Shown piece by piece: positions 833 to 61,690 of a stretch of DNA of 64,000 bases. A program made the position numbers and the translations under genes. The notes beneath the pieces are model-generated. The model saw nothing but the letters and a program-made list of their open reading frames with translations. It was not told the DNA's origin and did no database searches. This DNA comes from Siphonodentalium dalli (Eukaryota; Mollusca; Scaphopoda; Gadilida; Siphonodentaliidae): the NCBI GenBank assembly GCA_032622095.1, contig CP136063.1:207315934-207379933 (forward strand), written 5' to 3'. Position 1 is the first letter of the stretch; each line of letters begins with the position of its first letter.

Positions 833-2245
833 TCAGCCAAGAGAGAGAGAACGGTATCTTGCACAGTGTAGATGGTAGCACAATATGGTTGAGTAGTGAT
901 AGGCATCACAGACATCAGTCGAAGCCACAGATGAGGAGAAGTCGTCGAACATTGATGGATCTAGAATGTACTGTAGCTTGACTTCCGTTGGTATTGAGAA
1001 GAAATCAGTGTCAAATATACATTTGTAGCTTTCAGCTAACTTCGGCATAACACGATCACGGACTGGTTGTAGGTATGAACAGGTTAACAGAATATGTTGA
1101 ATAGACTCTTCACCATCATTACATAGCTGACACACAGGAGATGAGTTTGAGTATCGATGTATATTTACTTCCAAAGAATATGTGTTGGTCAGAAGACGAA
1201 GCTTAGTGGAAAGTTTAAATATACAGCGATGTTGATCAGGATTTACAGTCAGTATTTTGTTGATGACACCAGGTGTGTATGCTCGAGCATTAAGATACTT
1301 GAGAGTGCTGTACAGAGAGGCTTCTTCACAAATGCGATTTTTCCAATATGAGAAAACTGCTTCTTTGACACAGGTTTTCCAAGCATTTTTTGTTTGTGGT
1401 GAAGAAAGTTCATTAAAGATACATGGTAGATTATATTTGTGGAAGAGTGACTTTACTACTACAAACCAGCTGTGACTGGTTTTGTCCTTCATCAGCAGTT
1501 GACGAAATGCGAGCTGTTTTTCAACTGAGGAATCATCTTGGCGACAGACATTGTTGAATAATATAATAATCTTCTTGTCGATTTGTCCTTCAACTGGTAA
1601 AAGTCCAGAAAGAATATACACCACTGGGTCAGCTGTAGACTGAGATAAAGATAGAACCTGTTTAATAAATTTCTTCTGGTATAGTTCTAGCTTGAGAACA
1701 GCTTTCTGGTCCACACTAATAACTTCACAACCATATGTGAGAGCAGGAGCCACATATATCTTGTATAGATGAATGCAAGTTCTGGGGTCAAGACCGTTGT
1801 TACCATGAAGCCCCATAGGCATCAAGCTGTATGCTGTCCGTCTCGCTTTCTTTATATTATTATCGATTGTTTCAGTAACAGTTCTGTTCGAATTTGTGGA
1901 ACGAATTATACCAAGATGAGAGGAAGATTGTACATTTGGCATCTGCACTCCATCCATTAGGAATTTCATATCACTGGTCTGTCGTTTGCCACACTGAGAA
2001 ACTTTAATAATCACACTTTTCTGTGGTTGCAGCATATATCGATGTTCACGACTATATTGATGCGCAATGTTAATGAGAATTTGCAAATCACCTGGATTTG
2101 AGCTGACCAATGCAATGTCGTCGGCACATGCAGTGGCACTAACGTTGATGTTTCCAATCTTAACGCCGAGATCATTGGTGGATAATCTATGTAGGAGTTC
2201 ATTTATATAAAGTTTATACAGATCAGCGCTGAGATTCCTCTTGTC
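833..2245 (-). pseudogene. LINE ORF2, C-terminal part with ADD catalytic motif
   Basis: Continuation of the reverse transcriptase in a shifted frame; the residues encoded between about 2266 and 2245 are out-of-frame sequence. The catalytic motif C appears as ATACADDIALVS, followed by the thumb segment (SSHLGIIRS) and a tyrosine/glycine-rich connection (APALTYGCEVIS). Near the C-terminus a C-x2-C-x8-H-x4-C knuckle (CQLCNDGEESIQHILLTC) is visible, as in many LINE ORF2 proteins. The rest of the frame is open for over 400 codons, so the copy is not very old, but the frameshift and lost endonuclease make it inactive. Confidence 0.85.
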
Positions 2246-3419
2246 GAACTCCTTGCAGTATTTCAAAGACTTCTGATTTACATGAGTCCCATTTCACAAT
2301 GGATGAGCAGTTAGAATGAAGGTCATCAATCAACTTCCAATAAATATGGTTAATTGAAGTTAAATATGTTTTTCGAAGAAGCATTTCCTTGTTAACAACA
2401 TCGAAGGCAGATTTAGCATCCAAGAGACCAATGTAAACATCACTTTTCAGATCTTGCTGTTCTCGGAGAGCTTCCTCAAGCATGAGGGCACTGTTCAGAG
2501 GAGAGGCATTGGCAGTGAAGCCGCGTTGAATTGGAGCTTGTTCAGGCAAGGTGAATTTTCTGAATTCTTCACGAATAATTACTTCCATTATTTTCAGCAT
2601 GACGGGCAAGACAGTTATTCCTCTATAACTAGAAGCATATGCTTTGTCACCTTTGTTTTTATATACCGGATTCAGAAGACCGGTTTTAAGTGAGGTTGGA
2701 ATCTGTCCATCAGATAGAATCACATTGATAATTTGAGTCAGAATTTTAATAAGATTGTCACTTGTATAAACAAAATGTTCCGCAGAGAGTCCAAATATGT
2801 CTTCAGCTTTTCCTTTTTTCAAAGTGGAAATAGCTTTTCTTACTGTAGCGCTATCAACTTGGGTAGAAGTTGTATCCATAGAATTAGCTTTTATGGCAAG
2901 ATAGTCTATAATAACATCTTGAAAATGTTTAAAGTCATAGGAGTTATTATCGCTAGGTTGAGCTAGCTGACTGAAGTGTAGTTTCCATCCATCAATAACA
3001 TCCTCATTACAGAAGACCTCATCCCCAACATGAAGATCGGTCAAGAAGACACTTGCTCTACTTCGCTGTCGCTTTACGAGAGAATAGAAGAGATCCTTGT
3101 TGTTTTCGCCAGCTTGTATGATAGAAACTTTCAGATCCTGGTTTTGATGATGTACGGCTTTACGTACCTCAAGTCGGTATTGTCGGCGAGTTTCATTTCT
3201 ATGTATACATAGGCTGTCCTCTGGATCAATAGGTTTACCGGCGCGTACCCATTCAGAATGTGCAGCACGATTAACATGGAGAGCCGTAGAAATGTTACTA
3301 TTCCAAACAGACAGTTTTGGCTTGTTTTTATTTACTTTCCTTCCTCGAGATGTCTCTTTCGCAGCTTTACAAAGGATGTCGGACATATCGATAATAGTAA
3401 ATGCCAAGCAACCAATCAC
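2223..3419 (-). pseudogene. LINE ORF2, N-terminal part of reverse transcriptase (frameshifted)
   Basis: A 398-codon frame encoding the basic pre-RT linker and the first half of a LINE reverse transcriptase. Visible motifs are the fingers segment (GLLNPVYKNKGDKAYASSYR), a G-F-T-A-N-A-S segment, motif A with the first catalytic aspartate (LLDAKSAFDVV) and the start of motif B (QGVRQ). The frame then runs into a stop because of what looks like a single-base indel near 2245-2255. The continuation lies in the next frame at 833-2266. The first methionine at 3419 is only the first ATG after truncation. The protein would have copied element RNA at the chromosomal target. Confidence 0.85.
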
Positions 3420-3554
3420 AAGCGTGGATAAGGCTTAGATAGTCACGTGATATAAAATATATGCAGATAACACACAACACAGTTGACGTCGTGATGCGTC
3501 GCCATCAAGACTGATGTCATCAACCATCAAAATGTGTAAAAATTGGTCAGAATA

Positions 3555-3899
3555 ACCATACTAATAACCATACTAATAACCATACTAATAACCATACTAA
3601 TAACCATACTAATAACCATACTAATAACCATACTAATAACCATACTAATAACCATACTAATAACCATACTAATAACCATACTAATAACCATACTAATAAC
3701 CATACTAATAACCATACTAATAACCATACTAATAACCATACTAATAACCATACTAATAACCATACTAATAACCATACTAATAACCATACTAATAACCATA
3801 CTAATAACCATACTAATAACCATACTAATAACCATACTAATAACCATACTAATAACCATACTAATAACCATACTAATAACCATACTAATAACCATACTA
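3555..3899. repeat. 12-bp minisatellite, about 29 near-perfect copies
   Basis: The unit ACCATACTAATA repeats without visible substitution for about 345 bp. Because 12 is a multiple of three and the unit has no stop in several frames, it creates long artificial open frames on both strands (repeated ITIL, MVIS and WLLV peptides). These should not be annotated as proteins. Confidence 0.97.
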
Positions 3900-5906
3900 T
3901 TGGAAAATAATATGACTTACTCAATCTCCACACCTCACGCACGGTCACTGTTGCCGCCCAATGTGTTCTATGTTATTCAATACATAGTTTTGTATATTTG
4001 AACAAAGTCAACACACTATTATGATGTTGGTCACATATATATGTTATAGTTTTGAATATATATATGTCACTACTCAATAATTATTGAAACTATATATACG
4101 ACATCGACTTGTACACGGGAACTGGGTGTTCGATGTTTTGAACATACATGTGCTATTTTATAATGAATATGTGAGCAGTTTGTATTGCGTGCACTATGTG
4201 TTATACCTTATAGCATTGGTGTTCGATCTTATCACACGGTGTTGTAAACATTGCATATATATGTGTGTATAGTGTTATACATGGTTCGATGTGCTTAGCA
4301 CATTATAGTTTGCAACGACCAGAATATTGAACCCATACCTGGTATATAATATAGTTACAATAATAATACCATAATACAGGATACGAATTGTTGCCATGCA
4401 GGATATACGATCGGAAACCGTGTATTTGAGGAGAAATAGCTAAATTGTAAGATAAATAAAATATATTATAGTTATAATTATACCAACATAATATGACCAG
4501 CATGCCTGATGGGAACAGGTCCGGAACTAATTTTCCCATTCAATTATAAAAGTATACATTGGAATAGTCCATTATTCATTTGGAGAGATGTTCAGATCAT
4601 AAAAGCAGCCCACAGACAGGCGAAAAGCTAATACAAGTGCATTTAGAAAGTTTCACATTCTTTGGTGGGAAATGTTCAGATCATAAATTCAACAAACGAA
4701 CTTATTATCTGTACATTTCCTAAGGAAACTATTCATCAATGATTATTTAGCAAAGTAACGGTTAAACAATGGTCGAAACAATAAATAGAGCAGCCGGTAA
4801 TCATTATACTATGCAATGTATGCGGTACCATGTCCTGTTGTCATTTAAAGTGCTAATCTCTAATACATGTAATTGCGATTTAGTCGTTCCCTGTCGGGTT
4901 TTGGACCTGCTGTGTAAGACATCAGGTAGACAAGGATTTCATTCACACACGTCTGTCACTCAAGGTGTTTGGTGAATTGTCGGGGAATGTTGTAGGACTG
5001 TCTCATGACAGTCCCTACACCGTATGCCAATGCAACAATTTTGTAGACCCAGTTTATCCCACACAACATAATATGTGGTGTCTTTTGTTACCCAGTGTCT
5101 GTTTCGCAGTTCAATATTCAAATGGTGAACAATTGTTTATTAATTTGCAAAAGCGCGACATATGTCCACCAGCGTTCGAATTTCTTATCAATGTCACGTG
5201 TAAAACATACGCTTAGGAAAATAGAACACGGATGAGCACCGGACAGAGAAACGTAATCTTTTCCAGAGTTTATGGAAGTAGTGGCATGTCGTTTTTTTTG
5301 CACTGGTGGTTTGGGGGGGGGGGGTGGGGTAGCACCGGGATGGTCGAAATGCCCTTTCCTTCACCCCTCATATTTTTGCCTTTAATAAACATTAAACATA
5401 ACAAGAAAAAAAAGATAGCAATTTTGAACTTTTTTTGTTCTTTGGTGTTCACTTTCTTTTATCCGGTTGTGGTGGATACATGTACTTTGTACAGGAAACC
5501 GAAAACTGGCCCTGTGTCTTTTTGACCGTCACTATCCCAGGTGTTTTTTCAAATTGGTCTGTCCCTCCGTAGACCTGGCGATCCCTCAGCAGGAAGAATT
5601 CAAAGTTGTTGAGATGGTAAGTCCTTCCTGCTGAGTATAGTGTGTTGTTATCGCTGTCTTTATCCGGCTTCTTTCTGTTTCGATTTCTGTCCTACTCAGC
5701 AACGCCGGCCTCTCCGCATGTCGTCGTATAATTGCAAGATTTTGTACAGTGCCAGCACTTTTAGTGAACGAACAGCACTCAGACAGTGTAACACTATATC
5801 GGTGTTGAAAAATGAATTGTAACACATTCATGATTAAGTGCTGGATAACCACTTTAATGTGTTGGGATAAACACTTAAACGTGTTGGCGTGACACCTTTA
5901 AGTGTC
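3900..5906. other. Gene-free stretch
   Basis: No supported gene. Short frames of 60-97 codons have no recognisable domains. A TGTTCAGATCATAAA motif occurs twice about 100 bp apart (4588-4690), and a run of 12 G lies at 5313-5324. A short hairpin (GTGACAC/GTGTCAC, about 5889-5908) abuts the hAT target duplication. Confidence 0.5.
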
Positions 5907-6717: not shown

Positions 6718-8460
6718 AGGCAATGGGGCCAATACAAAGTTTTACTCCGCATATATATATAATTCCACAACGAGGCACCAATCGAATGACGTGCCGTAGA
6801 CACGTCGTGCACTATAATTTGCATGTATGTGCAATTTCACGTGCCCCTTATGATTGTATATTGTCAATGCTAACCTTAAAGGGTGTTATTCCGATTTCAG
6901 AACTCTGCGAAGATGTTACAATTGGAAATGCAAGTGTCAGATACAGCACTATAGGGGTTGGGAAAATGTAACACTTGGTTGGAATATCCATTTTAACACT
7001 TGAATTTTTAGAGTGCATGTCTTTATCGTGATTGAAAGTGTTTGTTGTATCTCCAATGGTTGGGCCCAGAGAGCCAACATGTTTGTAATCATGAACTCGC
7101 GAAACATCTCCATTGGTCAACAAACAATTAGCCTTGGGAGGATTGGTTGTTATGAGATTTCAAAGTATGAACAGTAGTATGTTATAGAAGACATAGAACT
7201 GGCTGGATAACTCAAAGTTCGTGCTTTAAAAAGCTGATATATGAGCACGTTTACAAAGACATTCTTAAACATCCACGCAATAGTATTGTAGACTTGACAT
7301 AATATAAGAGCACTAGTAAAGTGGCGTTGAACACTCCGCCGTGTTGATCGAATGGGATTACACAATGTATGGGTGTGATTGTGTATTCTCAAGTTAGCAG
7401 CACGGAACGTCATTCTTATATATACATTACATGCAGTGACTCTCTTTTGTTGAATCAATGCCGTTTGATTGTCATCGAAACTTCGCCCCGAAGTAAGTAT
7501 TAAATAACTACATACAATATGCATAGGCGCATGCGTGTACATGTATCTGCGGAGATAAAACATTGTGTCTTAGTGAATGGTAATGTCGGCGTTTTTCTGT
7601 ATTTCAATGTATTTAACGTCGCGTCTGAACTAAACTGTTATATCTCCATTTTTGGCAGGAAAATGAGGTATTGATATCTTTCGATTCTGTGTGGGATTTC
7701 CTGTCCGAAAATCACCAGATATCGTGTCTAAAATCTACCAAATTTGAAGGAGAGGCTATGGAAATATGTTCCATCTCAACAACTCAATTTTTGGACAGTG
7801 CAATATTGTTCTATCTCCACTGTGGGCCAATGAGTATATTTATTTTGTACCACGTCATTAAATCAATTTCAGTGCTATAATGTTGTATATCTGATCTTGA
7901 ATAGAAAGCTACGGGACCCGAATTTGACAGAGTGTCAGCGAAGTGACTAGTTGGAAAGAATGCTTTCTCACTCCTATGTGTGAACATCTTATTTCTAGGA
8001 GAATTATTGGGTAAAATAGCGCAAAAAAATGGCGCGATTTAAGATTTGTGCACGTTGATTGAAAAACACGAAATCACTATAGCACCCAAACCCACCCGCA
8101 TCAGGTCCATGTCCACACAGTCTCCATAAATAAACCCCACGGAACCACCCTCGCCACGTCCCAGTCTTAAACGTCAACGTCCCCATGTGCGAGGTCGTCG
8201 CCTGAATGAACCTAACATTCAAAGTTTTATTACCAGAGGCCCGGCTTGAGCTGCACTGGAATTAACAGTGAATAAAATAACACAATCCGAGTACTATACG
8301 ACACGGTACAATATTTTAACTTATATAATACTAGCTGGGGTATCCGGCGTTGCTCGGGTAAAGAAGATTGGAAACAAAATGAAGTTTTTTGAAATACATT
8401 TCCACAATTTCAAAGAACGTACATCTGTTCATCACATTCTGCTGCTTGGATGCATAGTTT
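6718..8460. other. Gene-free stretch with a short repeat fragment
   Basis: No supported gene. Around 8330-8360 there is a CTAGCTGGGG...GGCGTTGCTCGGGTA segment resembling a dispersed repeat remnant that I recall from many animal genomes; the family name is uncertain. Confidence 0.4.
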
Positions 8461-15597: not shown

Positions 15598-15799
15598 TTA
15601 GGCCTTATGTAATCAGTTGACAACTAAATATTATATTTGGTTGTCCCAGTTCCTTATGGGGCATGACAAATTCATTTTAAAGTTGCAGTATGAAATTTTG
15701 CCGAAAACCTCTTTTGTGATACTGGCCATCTTTTAAAAAGGAAATGAGCAGATGAACCATAATATGTGGCTATTCTGGCTCATGATGAAATTGATCAAA

Positions 15800-17065
15800 T
15801 TGATACAAGATGGAGGACAATATGGCAGCAAGGGAGTTACCGCATTGTCACAGGTGAGGTGAATAGGTATACATGGAGTTATGTTATGCCCATGGATGAT
15901 ATGAATATATACAAGCAATGGAGTGACTGTATGGTCATGGGTGGGATGTAAGTATCATTGTGGCTGTATTATCACATGTGTATTTTCATATGTGTAATAT
16001 GTGTTGTCTCAACTTGTCTGTGTGATCATGGGTGGGGCATATGGATAAATAGGGAGTGGTTGAATGACTATGTGTAATGTGTATAGGTGTACATGGAATG
16101 ACAGTACGGTCATGCATATGCATGCCTGGGGTATATCTAGGTGGTCGTTGGCGAGCGTGCGCATGGGTATATAGGGAGTGCCCTTGTGACTGTGTGACTG
16201 TGATCATGAATGTGGTGAATATGTATACATGGAGTGACTATGTCATGGGTCAGGTGTAGGAGTATACCTGGTGTGTTTGTATGGTGACTCAAGGCTGTAT
16301 GGTCATGTGTTATGTGTACGGATAAACACTTGTTGTATGGGCATGGGTGATGGGCATGTGTATAGCACGTGTGGCTATATGACCATCGGCGATGTACATG
16401 TGTATACCTGGCGTGACTCTATGGTCATGGGTGGTGTGTATAATTATGTTTATCATAAGTGACTATTTCGCAATGGGCGTGCCGAATAGATATACAGGGA
16501 GTGACCGTATGGCTAATGGTGAAATGAATATGTGTACCAGTGGTGACTTTATTATCATGAATGTGGTGTGGTGACAGGAGTTTATCTGTATTTTGAATCA
16601 TGGCTGTGTGGATTGTATGGGTATACACACGTGTGGTTGTATGGTCATGGTTGAGGCGTATGTATATAAAGCGAGATGTTATATGACAATTGGTGAGGTG
16701 CATATGTATACATGTGTGGCTATATGACCATTGGCGATGTGCATATGTATACATGGAGTTACTCTATGGTCATGGGTGCTGTGCATATGTATATCTCGAG
16801 TGGCTATTTGGCAATGTGTGTGGGGAATAGGTACACATATGGCCAATGGTCAGATCAATAAGTATACAATGATTGACTGTATGGTCATGAATGTGATGAA
16901 GATGTATATATAGTGACGATATGCTCAGGTGCAGGACACAAATGTGGCTGTGTGGTGATGGGTGAGGTGTATATTTGTATAAAGCGAGCGACTGTATTGT
17001 CATTTGTATGGTGTTTGTTGGTTGGTTGTGGGGTGACTATTAACCTGGTGGGTTGTACATGTGTA
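15800..17065. repeat. GT-rich degenerate minisatellite core
   Basis: Repeated variants of GTATACATGGAGTGACTGTA followed by TGGTCATGGGTG recur at roughly 60-90 bp for about 1.2 kb. The array creates many short Tyr/Met/Val-rich frames that are not genes. It sits between the arms of the 12.8-18.3 kb composite, and a 14-base G-run follows at 17070-17083. Confidence 0.8.
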
Positions 17066-34410: not shown

Positions 34411-35006
34411 CTAAGTATATTTTTGCAACTCATTCAAATAATTTAACAAACCCTCAGCTGTTTCAGACAGTATAACGAGATCATCAGCAAAAAGTAAGTG
34501 ACCAATCGGGCGATTGTTTATGTAGCACGGATGGCCCATGGTATTGAATTGTCTGTCAATATCGTCAATATTTTGGAAAGGGTGGGCGACAACGAAGATC
34601 ATTGCTGTACTCCTATTTTCGATTGCAAAGGGGGAACAAATCCCGCTGACGTTTTAACGGAATAAAAACTCGACTTATAAATGGACTGTAGAATCGAGAA
34701 TACCGACCCGTTAACACTAACACCTTGACGTTTTGTAAATAAAATAGATCTATCAACGGAATCGAATGCTTTCTTGAAATCTATAAAAGCAGTATATAGA
34801 GGTCGTTTCTGCTCTGTTTTCTTATCCACTAACGTATGCAAGCCGAACGCACTGTCGATTGTACTGCGATTTGTTCTAAATCCGAATTGATTATCGCTTA
34901 TATGTTTGTTTGTTTCTAAAAAAGTTGTCGATTTTAGAGTTAATAATTTTATTGAACAGTTTTCGAACATTATTAAGGGCAATTGGCCTGTAATTGTTTG
35001 GACCAT
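34411..35006 (-). pseudogene. LINE reverse transcriptase core (broken)
   Basis: The frame 34599-35006 carries the palm start (DNQFGFRTNRSTIDSAF) and motif A (AFIDFKKAFDSVDR) with the first catalytic aspartate. After a stop and frame change, 34411-34602 carries motif C (GHLLFADDLVILSE). The motif B region near 34600-34630 (SKIGVQQ) is disrupted. Confidence 0.85.
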
Positions 35007-35333
35007 GTCTGTTTCCTTTCTTATATAATGTGTTGATGAATGAATGACTCTAGCATAATGGATAATGTCCTGTCTTTGTTACATATAGGTCTATTATGCA
35101 CGATAATGCATGCACCATCTCACTCGATCCCCTTGTGGCGGTGCTGTCGACGGGTGTTATTTTCGGTGTTTTTGCGTATATTCATAGCAAATTGGGCAAA
35201 CTCCGCTCGAGCTATCGACTTGGGGATTGGAACTTTGGTATATACATGTCTATTATGTACAAATAGTGCATACCCCATATCGCTCGGAACATGGGGGAGG
35301 TGCGGTCGGGTGCGTTCGGCTTTTAGTAGGACC

Positions 35334-38293: not shown

Positions 38294-38386
38294 ATGGGAT
38301 ATACCAGAAAAACATGTATCGAGGCTCTAAGTCACAGCTCAACATTAGAAGAAGATATCCAGTATAGCTTGATGTTCGAAGAAGAT
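38294..38386 (+). CDS. Predicted exon of the split helicase-RBR locus
   Basis: A 93-nt open segment (31 codons) with a splice acceptor (TTCTCATATTCAG) immediately before 38294 and a strong donor (GAT|GTAAGG) at 38386. It begins with ATG and encodes MGYTRKTCIEALSHS followed by a Glu/Asp-rich stretch ending FEED. It ends on a codon boundary, and the next acceptor (TTTAATATTCAG, AG at 38807-38808) opens a phase-0 exon at 38809, so the two join in frame across a 422-bp intron. Whether the ATG is the true start or chance at an internal exon is unclear. Too short to stand out as a frame alone. Confidence 0.55.
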
Positions 38387-38808
38387 GTAAGGAAATTTAT
38401 ATAAACCCTTTCTTTACTATCGCACTCAGTTATAACAGTACATATCAGAATGGTTTATTATTAATCTCGGGGATGTTCATTACATATACGAAGACGACAC
38501 ACAGACAAATGGGCATGATGATTCCTATTTGTTTGCGGGAAATGTACAGATACCAATCGAAATATCATTAGAGTATATATTTCAAATGTTCCACTCAGCT
38601 GGCCACTTGGTTCCAGCTGGTCATTTTCAACAATTTACAAATTTTGTCAAATATGGAATAAGTAACGGAATTCACGTTGCTGAAGATAGGAGTTTAACTT
38701 GATGTTGGAATTTTTTGAATCATTAGGTGATAATTGATAATTGTGACTTACACTGCCATAAACATATTCATATGTGTAATAATAATGAAGTATGTGTTTA
38801 ATATTCAG

Positions 38809-40830
38809 ACACGAATTCAGATGACAGAACGTATGATGCTGACACAAGAAAGACAGAGCGGGGAGAATCGAATGGCAGAACTTGATAGGGAGGCACACGA
38901 AAGCTGGATGGAAGAGGCTCCGATGGCAGACCTTGCGATGGCTACACAAGAATGGCGAATAGAGGGGGGTCGGAGTGCAGAAATTGAGAGGCTGGAACCA
39001 GAAAAGCCGATAGAGGATGTTCGAACGGCAAAACTTGATTGCGAGGCAGACGAAAATCGGATACAAGATGCTCCTATTGCCGAACATGAGGGGGCGGCAC
39101 AAGACTGGCATAAAGAGGAAGATCGGACAACAGAACTTGAGATGCTGGAACAAGAAAGGCTGATAGAGGAGGTTCGATGTGCTGAACTTTGTACTGAGGC
39201 ACAAGAGAGTCAAAGCGAGGAGAACAAAATGGCAGAAATTGAGAAGGAGGCACAAGAAAGGCAGACAGATGAAGATCGGAATGCAGAGCTTGAGCGACTG
39301 AGACAAGAAAGGCAGAGACGGGTGTATCGACGGGCAGTTTTTGAGAGGATGGCACAAGAAAGACAACGAGAAGAGGTTCGAAAAGCAGAACTTGAAAAAA
39401 GGGCAGAACTGGAGAAGAAGGCACACAAATGGCAGAAAGAGGAAGATCGGAACGCAGAACTTGAGCGGCTGGTACAAGAAAAACGGATAGAGGAGGATCG
39501 AAGGGCAGAACATGAGAGGCTGGCACAAGAAAGGCGGAAAGAGGAAGATCGGAATGCAAAACTTGAGAGCCTGGCACAAGAAAGGCGGACAGAGGAGGCT
39601 CGAGTGGCAGCAGTTGAGAGACAGACCCACAAAAGGCGACAAAAACAGATTATGCGGGCAGATTGTAAGAGGTTGCTACAAGAAAAGCAGTCAGTGGAAG
39701 ATCGGAATGCAAAACTTGAGCGGGAGGCACAAGAAAGACAGAAAGCGGAAGATCGGAATGCAGAACTTGAGAGGTTGGCAAGAAAAAGGCAGAAAGAGGA
39801 AGATCGGAATGCAAAACTTGAGAGGCTGGCGCAAAAACGACGGACAGCGGAAGCTCGGGTGGCGATTGAGAAGAAGGGCCAAACAAGGCGAGAAAAGCGG
39901 ATTATGCGGGCAGAACGTAAGAGTCTGCTGACAGAAGGGTGGGTAGAGAAGGACTGTAGGACAGAGGCTGAGAGGCAGGCACACGAAAGGCGGCGAGAAA
40001 TTGAAGCCCCGCGTCGAAAAGAAGAATTAGCCTTATTAGAAACCTCATCTTACTTTGGAAAGCTGCCCCCTTATGAAAGTATACATGTACTGAAACATCG
40101 GATTCAAAGGCAGAAAGTCGACCGAAGATTTGCTGAAGACACTGAGGAACCCATTGGACGATTACAGACGGCGATGGACATCGATCGGAAATCTCATAAG
40201 ATGAGAGGCAATAGGCAATGTGTTGCTGTTGTAGAATCAAAGGGAGATAACATGTCGTCTGTCACATTAGATTCAATTGATAATATACACGAAGGCACTG
40301 CAATCTTGGCTGCTGAGTCTCTGTGTGAGGTTAGCACACCAGCAGACTTACATAGTACAAAAACTCTGGCAGCTGGTAGTCACGACCATAACACCAACTG
40401 GAGAAATTGCAGTGAGAAAGAACATGTCGAATCACAAAATAATATCTTAGAATTGGCTAAATTTCATACCATTTATCACCAAAATATTCATGTGACGTCT
40501 ATCCAGACTACATTAGCTGGTAGTTTAAGTGGTCAAGATCACATGGAAGTCGGTCAAATTGAGAGCGATAATAATGCTACTGATACACTATTATTCGTCA
40601 AAATACCAGAAATATTTCCAGACTTCAACTTCTATCAATATTTTCGATATTGGCTGCCCGAAGAGTTGCAGTTCAAAATTCGAGATGTCAAACATTGCAG
40701 TGGGTGTACTTTTATGAAGTTGGTCTTCAGCAGTAAAATTAGCTGTAATCAGGCTAAAACAGAACTAGAAAAACATATGGTGTCATGTACGTCAAAGATC
40801 GAGCTATCACTTTCGCCGCTTCGAAGATGA
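38809..40830 (+). CDS. Large exon: 17-residue charged repeat protein with C-terminal alpha/beta domain
   Basis: Open for 673 codons. The frame stays open upstream to an ATG at 38734, but that part reads as intron (Ile/Tyr-rich) and the splice site at 38808 is a better start. Residues ~20-400 are about 22 tandem copies of a 17-residue (51-bp) unit, consensus AELERLAQERQKEEDRN, with one 6-residue insertion at 39385-39402. Arg/Lys/Glu density suggests a long solvent-exposed helix. A polar linker follows. The last ~80 residues (from LLFVKIPEIFP, about 40588) have a beta-alpha-beta-beta-alpha-beta look, possibly RRM/ferredoxin-like. I infer it is the N-terminal part of the helicase-RBR gene continued at 40811 and 44045. 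The antisense frame is a shadow. Confidence 0.7.
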   Translation, partial: TRIQMTERMMLTQERQSGENRMAELDREAHESWMEEAPMADLAMATQEWRIEGGRSAEIERLEPEKPIEDVRTAKLDCEADENRIQDAPIAEHEGAAQDWHKEEDRTTELEMLEQERLIEEVRCAELCTEAQESQSEENKMAEIEKEAQERQTDEDRNAELERLRQERQRRVYRRAVFERMAQERQREEVRKAELEKRAELEKKAHKWQKEEDRNAELERLVQEKRIEEDRRAEHERLAQERRKEEDRNAKLESLAQERRTEEARVAAVERQTHKRRQKQIMRADCKRLLQEKQSVEDRNAKLEREAQERQKAEDRNAELERLARKRQKEEDRNAKLERLAQKRRTAEARVAIEKKGQTRREKRIMRAERKSLLTEGWVEKDCRTEAERQAHERRREIEAPRRKEELALLETSSYFGKLPPYESIHVLKHRIQRQKVDRRFAEDTEEPIGRLQTAMDIDRKSHKMRGNRQCVAVVESKGDNMSSVTLDSIDNIHEGTAILAAESLCEVSTPADLHSTKTLAAGSHDHNTNWRNCSEKEHVESQNNILELAKFHTIYHQNIHVTSIQTTLAGSLSGQDHMEVGQIESDNNATDTLLFVKIPEIFPDFNFYQYFRYWLPEELQFKIRDVKHCSGCTFMKLVFSSKISCNQAKTELEKHMVSCTSKIELSLSPLRR

Positions 40831-40952
40831 TGAAATCCAAGTTGCGACTCAGTCATACCGTGAAATATCTTCAGGCTAAACGATTTCTGAATCCAAAGAA
40901 ACACTTGGAGATGACATTACAAAATGGGAAGCAAGTCATAAATAGGAGGAGC
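40811..40952 (+). pseudogene. Frameshifted continuation of the large exon
   Basis: Just before the 40830 stop, coding-like sequence passes to the +1 frame: FEDDEIQVATQSYREISSG, a TAA at 40877-40879, then SESKETLGDDITKWEASHK, a TAG at 40943-40945 and EEL. The composition matches a normal soluble protein, unlike the competing frames. It runs exactly to the TA at 40953 where the 3.1-kb element begins, and the same frame resumes at 44045. One indel and two stops mark inactivation. Confidence 0.6.
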
Positions 40953-41779
40953 TACACGGTTAGAAAAAAGACCATCGCTTTAACGGTTTGAGACCGCGCA
41001 ACATCGCTGCCAACCTTTGCCCGTTAAACATACGGTCAGACCGTAACATGTTCCACGGTATAAAACCGTTTAAGTAACTGGCAGACCGTAACCAGTAACT
41101 GTCAGACCGTTGTATTGTTCACGGTTCAACACCGTTTAATTAATATCAACAACGTAACTAATAAAGGTCAGACCAATGGTATTTGTCATGGATCAACGCC
41201 AATTTTGTCCTCTTAATTTGCTGATTTACCATAGAATTAGCCAGGTTCCCATGGTAACAATATGATTTCCCTGTAGGCATTACGATTCATATGTTTTTGA
41301 ATGGTCGAAACTAGTATTATTCATAACTGAAAAATACATCTTAGTTCTTATGTTACGATCATAGTTTTGATTAAATGTAAATCCTCAATGCATAAAGTGA
41401 TAGACAATACATATGAAACTTTGCAGTTTGCAGAGGATCAAGCTTGTTATCTGCCTCGTAGAATTTAATCTGGAAAAAGGCTATAATGTGTTCGCCTTTC
41501 GCTAACTACTGTATGAATATGGCTGTAAATAAAAAACGATACTAGTAATAGCTGATAAGCCAACCCAATGAAACCCATCGGTATTATGAGTAATACTAAT
41601 TTCAACCATTCTAAAACATAAATCGGCATGCCCTTTTAAGCCATAAAAAGAACAAAGCTTCACAGTTAAAACTCAAATTTATGCACATGTAAAAGTTAAA
41701 TATCTTAATGGCATACTTTTTGGTAACATGTAAGGCGTGAGATTGTCCAGTCACTTGTAAACACAGTTTTTTGTTTTAA

Positions 41780-42273
41780 AGGTACGGTTGGCCTTGGCGG
41801 TGGGTATCCTGTGAAAATATTTCCACCCGTCAAAAAACGCCACAAACAGAAAGAACAACAAAATGTAGACTGACTTTGTCCGTACACAAATAAGAAATAT
41901 CGCATAAACAGTATGTTATTGTCATATATTTGACCATTGTTATGTAAACAAAAGTATAAAAAGTTACTTTTCCGGTGTTTGTTTATATTATGATGGTAAA
42001 CATAAAGAGCGTTCTTTGTTGGTGAATTCCTGATATGGAACGAATAAAGAGCGTTTATTCTATGTGTGTGTGTTTAGCCAGCAGCATTGTGCTGTCTTCT
42101 GTAACACAATCAGGCTCTTGCTTAGGTAAAATATAGTAAATCTTTATGATAACATGCTGTTTACGCGATGGTCATGGTATATATGAACGAAACTGTATGC
42201 GTTTTAATGTTTTTCTGTTTACGGTGATTGGAACAAATATGAATATTTTCGACAACTAAGGCCTCACGTGGCT
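41780..42273. mobile_element. TTAA-flanked MITE (AGGYACG family), copy 2
   Basis: A 494-bp element flanked by TTAA (41776-41779, 42274-42277), with ends AGGTACGGTTGGCC and GGCCTCACGTGGCT. It is closely similar over its length to 13096-13528, with extra sequence near 41960-42000. It is nested in the 3.1-kb element. Confidence 0.85.
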
Positions 42274-42304
42274 TTAACAGGTAAATCCGTAGATCATGAC
42301 AATA

Positions 42305-42792
42305 CAGTGCCAGTCAGGGAGAAGTGGTATTTTTAGGCGCACCTTTATTGCGATATTGAGCGTGCTTAATTTAGAAAAAGGCGTGATTATAGCACAATAC
42401 CAAATATATGTCGCGCTTATTTTTGCAATATTGAACTAACCGCGCTGAATCATACAGACCCGATAGTGTTATATTCATATTAGATAAATACTGTGCATAT
42501 ATTGTACATATAGTGTACACATAGCATTTACAACTATAATTATATACATATCTAAAACATTGTCTCTATTTATACAATAAACAATATAGAAGAAGCAATA
42601 ATTTGATTTAAATGTCACAATTTTGAGCGCAAGATGTCGTAATATTAAGCGCAAAATATTGAGATATTAAGCGCAAAATAGTGCAATAATATCACAAGCG
42701 ACATGCTTATAAGCGTTTCCACTTGCAATATTATTGCGATATTGGGGGCGAAAATAGCGAGCTTAATATAGCACTTCTTTTGACTGGTACTG
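42305..42792. mobile_element. Tc1/mariner-like MITE
   Basis: Ends CAGTGCCAGTCAGGGAGAAG and the complement of CAGTACCAGTCAAAAGAAG, flanked by TA on both sides. CAGTRCCAGTCAAA is a familiar Tc1-type terminus. The interior (488 bp) lacks transposase but repeats TTAAGCGCAAAATA-like motifs near 42630-42690. Nested in the 3.1-kb element, next to the TTAA MITE. Confidence 0.8.
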
Positions 42793-44044
42793 TATATCAA
42801 TAACAGCTAGTTGCGATTGGAACCTTCAAGGCAACAGCAGATCCCATAATAACTGTGCGCAATGACTTGGCGGCAATGTTCTCCTGTAGTCGCACATTTT
42901 CCATGAAATTTTAAAGCATGATGCATCAAACTGTATACTGGTATCACGACACTTATTATCAATATCAGTGAGTCAGCCAAAGATAGTTTGATAAGAACAT
43001 CCAACCAATAGTGTACTCCCGGTAAATTGTCGTAATAACTTGACGATAACATGGCGAATGATTACAATGTCTCATATCCACACGTTTCAAGGAAAATTGA
43101 TGAATTTGTCCGTGTAATTGTAAAGTTGAAATTGTTTTTGTGATCATCTGTCACTGCGCGGAGTCAGTTCATTGTTTCATGTGTTTTTGTTGACATTGAA
43201 GCTCTTGTGAATTACACTGGTGCGTACAGTACATGTACATGTATATCTCTCTTTTAAATGTACATGCATGTGCTTTGAAACAATCAGATTCAGAACACTG
43301 TCAACTGGATTGTCAATATTCTAATAGTAATAGCTGCTCGTTGAGTCGTTGTTGTGATTATTGTCACTATTGATTGACATCGAAGCTCGTGTTAATTGTA
43401 CCTGTATCCGCTTGTGTCAGTAAATGTGCCAGTGTTTTGATAGTAAGTCACAACACTGTCAATTTCAACATCAGCACTGAGTCGAATGTAGTCAGACCCG
43501 GAACATGCCATGATTCACATGAATCTCTACTCTCGAATTTAGTGGAAAATGTCAATGATTAAGCCGGTTTTCGCAGAATTGAAACTTGTCCGGTTATCAA
43601 AGGAACCGAAATCAGACCGTCTTAACAACTGTCCACAATCGAAAAGGTAACAGTTTCCCAAAAAACAATAGTTTGCGATCAACGATAAATCATATTAAAT
43701 GGCGAAGAAATGAGCTGAGTGCTAAAGTGAGAACTTAACCCGGAATGAGAATAACGTACCGTACTCATGATAATTCGTACGGACCCGCTTACACAGAATG
43801 AATGCCGGATTAATAATACACATTCAATATCAGCAGAGTAAGATTCAGTCATACTGTATGGAGTCATTGCCGTATATAATATGGTCGCCGATAAATATAC
43901 TATTAAATTTTGACGGCATGACTTAGACAATTTTCATGGGCACATAAAATAACGGTAAAAACCCGTCAAACTGATGAAACGGTATGGGACCGTCGATTAT
44001 GACGGCCCGAAACCGTCGAACCGACATTATTTTCTAACAGTGTA

Positions 44045-45440
44045 GAATTGCAAAAGAAAGAATTTGAAATATATGTCGAAAGCCTCATACGGAAACTAGC
44101 TCCTCCTCGCTTCATATGAAAAACGATTTGGATGTATAAATCAAGGTATATATAATGGTGCACTTAAACATTATAACTATCGTCACAATATCGTGAATGG
44201 GATAACAAATAACCAAGTATGCGTGCTAATAGGGTAGACTGGATCAGAAAAAAGCAAGCAGTTAATTCATTATCTACACAAATTCTGGAATCGTCGTCTG
44301 TACGCAACCGAAGAAAATTGCAGCCCCATACACTCGCGGGTAGCATCTTAGATGGGCACAGGGGTATGCAAATCGAGTACGAAGTTGCCGATCATTTCCT
44401 TTTGGACGATTGCCTAAAAGATAAGAACCTATCTGCTTATTCGCGTATCATTCTAGACGAAACTCACGAGCGGGCAATCTACACGGACCTATACTGCTCG
44501 GAGTGATCAAACAGTTACTGACGTCGCGTCCAGAACGTCGTCTTGTCATATCATCAGCCACTATAAATCCATAAACTATTTTGCAAATATTTCGATAACA
44601 AGTGCGAAGTTTTACATGTTCCAGGAAGGACATTTCCAGTCGACGTCATTGGAGTATTGACGATTATGACCAGTGCAGTATTGACAATTACGAAGCTGAA
44701 GCAGTTCGTAAGACTATCGAAATTCACTTGAATATGCCACCGGGAGATATCCTGATTTTCCTACCAACGCCACTTGATAATGAAAGGTGCTGCAGAGTGG
44801 AAGATCCGAGGCAGACGTCGAAGAGGATATTGAATACAATGTTTGGTTTCGTGCGAAAGAGGAGGGTACCATGTACCGACTTGAAATATGCGGTCACGCA
44901 TATTGCAAGAGCTGTTTGCAACGGCGGTTTGAAACACACGTGAAGTCTGCAGATTTCCCAATGAAATGCTGCGCTGAAAATTGCACAACAATGGGCTTTG
45001 AAGGACTTAAGAAACTTGCTTTCTAGTGGCGTTACTACGGAAACAGTTTAAAGTAGTGGATAATTTTGTGATAGTCAACAACAAGGATTCTCGGTTCTGT
45101 CCGACACAAGATTACCCATTGGTTTACCGTGTTACTGAACATAGCCTAAGATTTTACCCTGATGTTTGCGGAAGAGTGACAGATCGAGGCTGCCATGTTC
45201 AGCACCATCCTTACCTGGGATATCGTGCGAAGTAACCATCGTGCTAACGTAGCCAATGAGAGCATTCAGACATGACTTCTAACTGATGAGGACACTTGAA
45301 TGAACGTGTCCGAATGGCGAGAACTTAATTACGTCGAGAAGACCGGTATATGTCAGCTAAATGATTGCAGCGGTTGTAAACTGCTAATTTGTTGGGGTTA
45401 CATGGAGTTCTTCAGATAGTGATGGCTGCTACAACTTCTT
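44045..45440 (+). pseudogene. Decayed DExH-box helicase fused to RBR ubiquitin-ligase (DEAH11/12-like)
   Basis: Pieces in order across several frames: LQKKEFEIYVESLIRKL (44048); NNQVCVLIG, then a stop at 44235-44237 inside Walker A, which survives as TGSEKSK with the key Gly and Thr changed; LLDDCLKDKNLSAYS; motif II DETHER (44456-44473); motif III SAT (44554-44562); VPGRTFPVDV (44618); GDILIFLP (44743). RING1 remnants follow at once (RCCRVEDP near 44785; ICGHAYCKSCLQRRFETHV), then an IBR (RFCPTQDYPLVYRV, where a Cys has become Tyr) and a RING2 tail (LICWGYMEFF). Helicase C, winged-helix and OB domains are missing, implying an internal deletion. The family couples an RNA helicase core to an E3 ligase; this copy cannot be active. 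Confidence 0.85.
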
Positions 45441-45969: not shown

Positions 45970-47282
45970 CCTTATAAAAACAATTCTGGTAAATATCCGA
46001 TAAACCATGGTTTACCAGACTCTACTCTGGTCAAATGTGGTAAAGTCAGGTTAACACTGGTATGCTCTGGTAAAAGACATGTAAACCCCATGTAAAAAGG
46101 ACACACCCTTGTAAATTCCATGTAAAGCATGGTTAAACTCAGGTTTACAGTAATATACTCTGGTAAAACACATGTAAACAGTGCACACCTTGTACATTCC
46201 AAATAAAGGCATCGGACAGTCAGGTTAACAATACTATATTCTGGTAAAGGCCACATACACCCACGTAATAAGCATACACTTCTAAATTGCAAGTAAAGGC
46301 AGGTTAACAATGATATATTCTCGTAAAAGTCATGTACACCCATGTGAAAAACATACACTTGTGAATTATAAGTATATCACGGTAACGTCATGTTAACACT
46401 GATATACTCTGGTAAGTGTCATGTGCACCCATGTAAAATTACATACCCGTGTACATTCCAAGTAAACCATGGGGTACCACACTCGTCAAATGCTTGTGAA
46501 ACATGACATACATGGAGAAAACACATGTAAATCAGAACACGCTGTAGTAAATCACTGAAAAAACGCTCGTTAACTGTTTTTATTATTTTTTTTTCATTTC
46601 TGAATATATCTGCTATTTAGTAAAAAAAATAAACGCTCCATAAAAGACGATTTACTTCAAAAATCGTCAGTTACTTCAAAAGGTTGGCGCTACAACCTTG
46701 ATGTTTTTTATAGTTGGTTCCAGTCAGATGGAATTTGTAAATAACGGAGATCTACATTTATTCCCTAGTATTAATGATATGTGGCAGCTAATAACGCATC
46801 AATTGAATGAGGTGAAGTAATTCCACACAATAATATATAAGTAATATAAGGGAATTGATCGTATAAATCTTAGTCATATTCCTAGACTAAAGTCTGGTAC
46901 GTTGTCCTGGGAGCAGTTCAGACTTACACTACCGATACTTCAGAACGCATTTCAATCTGGTATAATAATTTAGGTGGGTTGGGTTTTTGTATATGTAAGT
47001 CCAAAATGTTAACAACCCTGGAATCCAATCAATCACAAAATTACGGGTTCATAGGTTACAATATTGTTCATGTCTGTACGTAATGGTAATACACCAGGAT
47101 TTATTAGAGTATAATGTAAATGGAGTAGACCACACCTTTACATGTAATTTAGAAGGGTATGAACATCTTGCGTGGTTTTTACCAGATTATATCATTGTTT
47201 ACCAAACTTAACTCATTTTACTAGAACAGGGCCTTGTAAATCATGGTTTGCCGCGGTATTTTACCAGCGTTATTTTACAAGG
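45970..47282. mobile_element. 1.3-kb TIR element with tandem core
   Basis: The left end CCTTATAAAAACAATTCTGG and the complement of the right end (CCTTGTAAAATAACGCTGG) match, and pairing continues for about 50 bp (GGTAAA..ATACC..AAACCATG.TTTAC). From 46015 to about 46500 the core is five or six ~85-bp units (CTCTGGTAAAAGTCATGTA, ACCCATGTAAAAA, ACACTTGTAAATTCC, GGTTAACA-TGATATA). No transposase frame. A partial copy lies at 9350-10090. Confidence 0.75.
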
Positions 47283-47999
47283 ACATGTGCGATAACTCTA
47301 TCTCACAATAACACATTTTATCACGTATTTCGCCCCTAAACCAGGCCTCATATTTTAGAAGACACACGTGTATTACCGGCACTACCAGTGACGTAAGAAC
47401 TTAGCACAATGACGTCGATGTCAATGCCGAAACTTTAGTATTATGTTAACTGGAATATAATTATGATATTCGATTTGTGCTGGGTGACTTAGTGTTGACT
47501 GTGAGATAAACATGGATGACAAGGGTGCTTGTATACTGTTGTCAGCATGAAAAGACACATTTAATCGAACTATATTTCTTCTTGAATGTGTCGTTACTTC
47601 CTCTTTGGTTGTTATCAATCAATATTAATTTGTTTTAACCGCAATCGTTTCGAGATCGTTTCTCCTTTCTAAAATGTGATTATGTGATAAAATGGATCAA
47701 ATTCGTCGCAATTCTATACACAATTATTTAGAGCCTCTTACCTAAATTGGATTAGAGCGTCGCTAAAGCTCGGCTCGAATCGAATTTAGTGCACTCGGTT
47801 AATACATTTCGTACAGAATGGCGACTCATTAGAGATCCTCTATATACGTAACTGAGGTGTTTTCTGTCACATGTTGTGAGACAAAAAATATGTTTTCATA
47901 GTTAGTCAGTGGAAATCAATTGTACCCGTGTCGTGCAATCAAAAGTTAACAGAATGTGATCCATATAGCATCCAACCTGTTATATCAACTGACAAAGCT
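47283..47999. other. Gene-free stretch
   Basis: No gene or clear repeat supported. Confidence 0.45.
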
Positions 48000-61275: not shown

Positions 61276-61428
61276 CCCACACCGCCCAGAATCATAATAC
61301 ACAGAGACAAAACTTTAACAGAGACTGTCTACTTCACCCCTATTGCTCCCGACTAATTCCGAATGATCAGATCTTTTTGGTTTTGTTTTCCTTTTTTGCT
61401 TTGATTGAAATTGATGATTGGGGAAAAG

Positions 61429-61690
61429 TGACGCGACAAGGCTCCCATGTTCAACACCATTCTGGGATATCGTGCGACGGTAACAAAGGTGCTAAATCAG
61501 CCAACAGGTGCTCCCATGGATGGCTTCTGACCAATGATGATACTGTCTAGAAGAGTGTGTTAATAGCGACACCTACGTTGAAAAGATGTCATAAAATGAC
61601 TTGCGAAAGCACATCTGTTGGAATCGCATCGAGTTCTTCAAAAATAGTGATAATTGTTAAAAACACTTGAGGGAAAACATGGTGGCTATA
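61429..61690 (+). pseudogene. Second fragment of the helicase-RBR 3' end
   Basis: Aligns collinearly with about 45178-45470. Shared landmarks are CCATGTTCA.CACCAT, GGGATATCGTGCGA, GTGCTAA, TTCTGACCAATGATGA-type sequence, and a conserved RING2 tail that reads HICWNRIEFFKNSDNC here (61610-61660), followed by LREN. Several stops and shifts interrupt it, and no helicase sequence precedes it. It is a truncated duplicate of the last exon region of the same family; its RING2 tail is better preserved than that of the 45-kb copy. Confidence 0.75.

Follow-up and report, generated by a model that had tools for sequence, protein, structure and literature searches.

A putative decayed gene for a DEAH helicase-RBR ubiquitin ligase with a charged-repeat N-terminal region and an inserted transposon

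Proteins that combine an RNA helicase and an RBR ubiquitin ligase in one chain have seldom been studied; as far as the accessible text of PMC2904391 goes, they are on record in plants and animals and have been lost repeatedly. The same text (Marin, 2010) places the "Helicase" RBR subfamily in both unikonts and bikonts, with losses in multiple animal lineages. In venus clams, a gene named ATP-dependent RNA helicase DEAH12 serves as a nuclear marker in the accessible part of PMC8765752; it belongs to the same class by annotation, being known from its gene name alone, and since DEAH12 is annotated there in an invertebrate, the class is already on record in that group according to this part of the source. 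Among solved structures, the helicase core of the proteins described here is nearest to PRP22/DHX8 (E ~1e-123 to 1e-122), the closest solved kin of the helicase-OB core, where the match ends at the OB domain and for which no RBR is reported. The RBR module is nearest to ARIH1 (E 1.5e-14, with the RING2 GGC-HM motif aligned), and ARIH1/ARIH2 (Ariadne) are its closest solved kin, whereas here a helicase ends in the RBR, and the 223 residues searched, which reach the stop, showed no Ariadne domain after it.

We have analysed a stretch of 64,000 nucleotides (the window; C3:207315934-207379933) together with the genome from which it comes, 2.23 Gb in 9 contigs and, to judge by its size and interrupted genes, probably that of an animal, which was searched with four window pieces and the second large exon of a contig C7 paralogue as queries. 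Seven main loci were found: two on contig C3 (the window copy and a twin), two on C7 in mutually inverted orientation (C7a and C7b) and three on C5 (C5a, C5b and C5c). The C7 and C5 copies resemble members of the "Helicase" (Plant I) RBR subfamily, which includes plant DEAH11 and DEAH12, in having a DEAH helicase, an OB domain, a DEAH11-type KH domain and a C-terminal RBR; the C7 and C3 copies differ from that subfamily in two additions, an exon with weak likeness to UBA and a long, charged and probably helical repeat whose length varies. To our knowledge, the plant DEAH11/DEAH12 members have no such N-terminal extension. On sequence comparison, the joined DEAH-RBR class is already known and the C7/C3 branch with its arm is a variant of it, set apart within the class by its N-terminus. 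A literature search, with most subscription papers outside its reach, found no title that deals with repeats at the N-terminus of animal DEAH-RBR proteins.

The features of the window copy and of one further fragment are as follows (positions are those of the window).

38294-38386, + strand: small exon, weakly UBA-like, 31 codons followed by GT; homologous exon at C7:96407183-96407284
38809-40014, + strand: about 400 residues of charged repeats with a 17-residue unit, predicted to form a continuous helix, from the period of 17, the helix model and charge pairing
39403-39858: 51-bp DNA repeat
40015-40830, + strand: conserved region with a small RRM-like/ferredoxin-like domain (about 40564-40827) and a stop common to the twin, from C7 identity, a model and the twin
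40831-40954, + strand: out-of-frame remnant of the coiled-coil region preceding the helicase, from translation of the flank against C7
40955-44042, no strand assigned: 3,088-bp DNA transposon, flanked by duplicated TA target sites (40953-40954 and 44043-44044) and inserted at this position in the twin too
44043-44797, + strand: RecA1 remnant of a DEAH helicase with degenerate Walker A, DETHER and SAT, from paralogue matches
44797-44799, + strand: deletion junction, with C7 residues ~724-1710 missing, from blastn of window and twin to C7
44798-45413, + strand: RING1-IBR-RING2 remnant, from paralogue matches
61404-61625, + strand: separate second IBR-RING2 fragment with a stop inside, 41% to C7, E 2.5e-6

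Elsewhere in the window, reverse-transcriptase frames with RVT_1 matches lie on the minus strand at 833-3434 and 34599-35078; the matches are above the cut-off for 2223-3434 and 34599-35078 and below it for 833-2293. A simple array occupies 3515-4001, and its plus-strand frames read as NHTNNHTN or ITILITIL runs.

Judged from these comparisons, 38294-45413 is a decayed animal-type DEAH helicase-RBR gene with a transposon inside and a charged, probably helical region at its N-terminal side. It was only the comparison with paralogues that identified the gene; a Pfam search with the window pieces by themselves assigned no family to the 673-codon exon or to either helicase piece, and for RING1 returned weak RING matches below the cut-off. 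Matches of the tail before the transposon to DUF7339 (E 0.0091) and PH_SLA1 (E 0.14), and of the IBR piece to DUF2714 (E 0.066), were also below the Pfam cut-off and were dropped. The original prediction, made from the window's letters alone, had proposed the small exon, the long exon 38809-40830, a 3,088-bp element and helicase and RBR remnants in N-to-C order on one strand, and each is borne out: an exon homologous to the first lies upstream of a C7 paralogue, the second is open for 673 codons with a 17-residue period far above shuffles, the element measures exactly 3,088 bp with TA on either side and complementary ends, and the remnants match the paralogues in that order, with several frame changes. 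The frameshifted tail that it drew to 40952 is present on the plus strand, and has stops too when it is read in the homologous frame. The large internal deletion at 44797-44799 comes in addition to what had been predicted.

The paralogues have shown what an unbroken gene of this kind looks like. At C7a, one frame of 745 codons combines the charged repeats with the alpha/beta domain and with helicase motifs I-III, and after an intron a frame of 1,217 codons carries Helicase_C, OB, RRM, KH_DEAH11 and RBR. RecA1 and RecA2 of a helicase have to act together, and since the repeats, the alpha/beta domain and RecA1 share a frame at C7a, the two frames are taken as one gene. With the UBA-like exon, the model of this gene has three exons, joined on the basis of splice-site ends and homology, and a predicted protein of 1,933 aa without internal stop, with the motifs GEPGSGKS, DEAHER, SATIN, QRKGRAGR and RING2 GGCQHMTC; it is the single predicted protein with repeats and DEAH-RBR domains for which a search had been proposed. 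C5a is an uninterrupted frame of 1,725 codons (1,699 from the first Met), 62.9% identical to C7 residues 211-1932, and joins the alpha/beta domain with all of DEAH-RBR. C5b is open for 1,616 codons and is without the alpha/beta stretch, C5c is split into two frames, and C7b has frame breaks. Thus, two of the seven loci are unbroken and complete (C7a and C5a), C5b is open though shorter, and the remaining four are broken; of the repeat-bearing copies, C7a is by its frames the only unbroken one.

Pfam matches for C7 exceeded the cut-offs for DEAD (37.4 bits), Helicase_C (43.7) and OB_NTP_bind (46.4), and likewise for C5a. In the C7 RBR, IBR, IBR_1 and IBR_2 were above and the RING models below their cut-offs. 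KH_DEAH11 (PF24471) was above the cut-off at four places in the genome, two on C7 and two on C5, and in 0 of 14 control genomes. The DEAH11-like RNA-binding domain PF24475 stayed below the cut-off (E 0.0036 for C7 and 0.00022 for C5a), and RRM_1 was above it at the same place. Omega between C7a and C5a was 0.13 over 1,196 codons of the second large exon, which shows clear purifying selection on that exon; among recent copies the values of 0.29 (C7a vs C7b), 0.54 (C5a vs C5b) and 0.44 (C5a vs C5c) indicate less constraint. The comparisons of C7b with C7a in the second exon (out of frame) and of C7a with C5a in the first exon (dS saturated) were left out; in the second exon, C7b has 89% protein identity to C7a over 644 aa.

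Two peculiarities of the C7 loci were also observed. A 48-bp tandem repeat of about 43.5 copies (C7:96420518-96422621) reaches into the start of the second helicase exon of C7a, and each unit carries the exon's own 3' splice site and first bases, TTACAG followed by GTGTAGAG..., so that the acceptor is present in dozens of successive copies; since 48 bp correspond to 16 codons, splicing at other copies of the acceptor need not shift the frame. Downstream of C7b, extra partial copies of the IBR-RING2 tail are found (7214-7600 of the C7b locus sequence; C7:96320359-96320548).

The claim that repeats, alpha/beta domain, helicase and RBR once formed one gene, split by the transposon, has to be weighed against two unrelated neighbours, a gene for a repeat/alpha-beta protein lying beside a DEAH-RBR gene. 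The window has no single frame joining both parts, the repeats were not found with the C5 DEAH-RBR frames, and repeat-only fragments exist (a 319-codon frame near the C7 cluster and a 99.6% identical copy on C4), so that the opposite arrangement named by the original prediction, with the repeat protein alone and DEAH-RBR proteins without it, is half present; yet the unbroken C7a frame unites repeats, alpha/beta domain and RecA1, C5a has the alpha/beta domain and the whole of DEAH-RBR in one frame, and the sequences on either side of the transposon adjoin each other in an unbroken stretch of C7. We regard two neighbours as highly improbable and retain the single gene.

The small exon has 59% identity to its C7 counterpart over 29 aa (E 5.8e-4). 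This exon is probably internal and not the first, because the C7 counterpart has an acceptor and in-frame codons ahead of the matching part. The term UBA-like is a description only, all UBA scores being below the cut-offs: Pfam UBA gave E 0.038 and 14.3 bits against a cut-off of 22.4 for the window exon, UBA_7 gave E 0.021 (15.1 against 27 bits) and UBA E 0.034 (14.4 against 22.4) for the C7 exon, and the twin's small exon had no UBA match in Pfam. When about 19 kb before the window repeat exon was compared with the C7 upstream region by tblastx, the UBA-like exon was the only convincing forward match, and the first exon or exons of the C7 gene were not found upstream of it.

The window repeats have an identity of 0.353 at lag 17, the shuffle maximum being 0.173 (lags 2-59, 2,000 shuffles). 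The period is about 17 in C3 and 18, 32 and 50 in C7, the repeats being of the same kind, and the length of the arm varies from about 90 residues in C7a to about 370 in C7b (in two frames) and about 400 in the window. A stretch of 144 residues of the window repeats was modelled from one sequence as a single helix (pLDDT 96.4); charged sequences like these often come out as helix in models, and the model gives modest support. Opposite charges at i+3/i+4, as looked for in a single alpha-helix (SAH) type region, exceeded shuffles in all three repeat regions tested. The pairing score was 46 in the window, with a shuffled value of 0.7 and 1 of 2,000 shuffles as high, lag 4 being nearly balanced (48 opposite vs 44 same); it was 40 vs 1.3 in C7a and 116 vs 0.7 in C7b, with 0 of 2,000 shuffles as high in both. 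Taken with the model, the repeats are probably helical. No repeats were found with the C5 paralogues in 9.5 kb searched upstream of C5a and about 3 kb upstream of C5b and C5c, and the one weak match at C5b, of 24.6 bits, lies within the coiled coil.

The repeat-only frame near the C7 cluster lies at C7:96268.1-96269.1 kb (in C7:96266500-96272499) and starts like the C7b repeat exon. Its counterpart on C4 is a 5-kb copy (C4:257889000-257893999), and their near identity points to either a very recent interchromosomal copy or an assembly duplicate.

The region 40015-40830, which follows the repeats, has 62% identity to both C7 copies. Its small domain was modelled with low confidence from one sequence (pLDDT 64.7) in the order beta-alpha-beta-beta-alpha-beta, and RRM-like is used as a label for this order of strands and helices only. 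With this model, Foldseek gave 0 matches at E <= 0.001, and VIA-align gave a best Z of 7.8, under its informative level, with ferredoxin-like domains of an efflux pump, DapE, aspartokinase and Nup54 as top matches.

The transposon has a TA target duplication and terminal inverted repeats and is, from these ends, a candidate Tc1/mariner-like element; the inverted end arms are 16 nt long and 94% complementary. A genome search for it listed at least 1,871 candidates; forty matches among them were scored, of which 36 start within query bases 6-8, at the element's edge. Downstream of the insertion, the helicase and RBR remnants run in changing frames, and between them the same two C7 positions form the breakpoints in the window and in the twin, with a 3-base overlap in blastn. 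Lost in this deletion are the end of RecA1, RecA2, OB, RRM and KH, amounting in C7 terms to 11,268 bp including an intron, or about 988 residues. With RecA2, OB, RRM and KH deleted and frame changes throughout the remnants, the window copy is, judged from its sequence, dead as a helicase-ligase gene.

The distance from the window copy to its twin is 95.9 to 97.0 kb. Since the transposon site, the deletion breakpoints and the early stop after the alpha/beta domain are shared by both, the gene was already broken before the segment was duplicated. Divergence between them is 2.5-3.9% in the transposon, the remnants and the alpha/beta region, and 1.1% to 11% in the remaining stretches; values of 11.6% and 20.3% in the repeat region were not used, as non-equivalent repeats may be paired. 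One stretch of 1.1 kb (window 46705-47802 vs 15712-16811 of the twin sequence) is 98.7% identical amid DNA of ~92-95%, a pattern as gene conversion or later insertion would give. Each C3 copy is followed downstream by an additional RBR fragment (window 61404-61625 and C3:207469721-207470005), which may come from a second dead RBR gene within the duplicated segment.

These data suggest that a C7-type gene reached contig C3 by DNA duplication with its first recognised intron kept. Processed retrocopying would be another route, for which it could be said that the deletion covers the site of the C7 RecA1/RecA2 intron, which is therefore not visible in C3; but the intron between the UBA-like and repeat exons is retained with GT...AG ends in both the window and C7 (GTAAGG...ATTCAG at 38387-38808), and retrocopies are very hard to credit. 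After DNA duplication, the C3 gene would have received the transposon at a TA site within the coiled-coil segment, a deletion between RecA1 and RING1 would have removed about 990 residues, and the dead gene would then have been duplicated about 96 kb away within a larger segment, the copies having since diverged by about 3%. As a whole, we consider it very probable that the window carries a pseudogene derived from a C7-type gene for a DEAH helicase-RBR ubiquitin ligase, formed by insertion and deletion with segment duplication afterwards, and that the unbroken C7 copy encodes a putative enzyme with an arm.

An unlikely alternative is that a shortened gene comprising the UBA-like exon, the charged helix and the RRM-like domain has survived from the N-terminal half, and that its product would regulate the intact C7/C5 enzymes or act as their decoy. 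Its 673 codons are open, and the stop falls directly after the last predicted strand. Between window and twin, no frame-breaking indel occurs in the 816 bp of the alpha/beta region, where 3.6 are expected (P 0.028), with P 0.012 for the entire frame on the window side alone; both of its two indels are multiples of three, in comparison with 0 of 17 in the transposon, the remnants and the adjacent downstream stretch (P 0.006) and 10 of 58 when every other counted stretch is taken (P 0.037). This lack of frame-breaking indels is at odds with simple death of the N-terminal half. The last 251 bp have one substitution, but control DNA also has stretches of this length with no more than one change, in 3 of 540 overlapping segments without 46705-47800 and 34 of 625 with it. 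Against survival, omega in the alpha/beta region is 1.06 between window and twin (5 synonymous and 19 other changes), its divergence of 3.0% matches that seen in the transposon and remnants, in the twin an insertion and frame changes disrupt the repeats, and the tests were picked after the data had been seen. When substitutions alone were simulated, about 27% of neutral frames of this kind remained open at 1.5% divergence and 7% at 3%. RING1 has an omega of 0.17 between window and twin, from 5 changes in 62 codons, which points against neutral decay and was given no weight.

For the unbroken C7 protein, the most likely mechanism, by analogy with known domains, is RNA unwinding coupled to ubiquitin transfer. 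It would act as a 3'-5' DEAH RNA helicase, with the OB, RRM, KH and N-terminal alpha/beta domains holding RNA, and the RBR with its kept RING2 cysteine would take ubiquitin from an E2 by thioester and transfer it to proteins associated with the bound RNA or ribonucleoprotein. A long arm formed by the UBA-like exon and the charged helix may dock ubiquitin or a partner at a distance. A role of the intact relatives in RNA sensing or RNA quality, as the original prediction raised, is conjecture. A more far-reaching proposal is that this DEAH-RBR branch has a fast-changing arm between a ubiquitin-binding-like exon and the RNA helicase, whose length would set the reach of the ligase on RNA, and that in C3 the arm and the RRM-like domain were freed by deletion and transposon and persist as a stand-alone decoy of the full enzyme; we think this unlikely.

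The window copy is a dated fossil, and its main value is that it shows how such genes get lost. The presence of at least two unbroken long copies in an animal-type genome, one of them with a predicted helical arm, provides concrete proteins in which RNA-coupled ubiquitination may be assayed.
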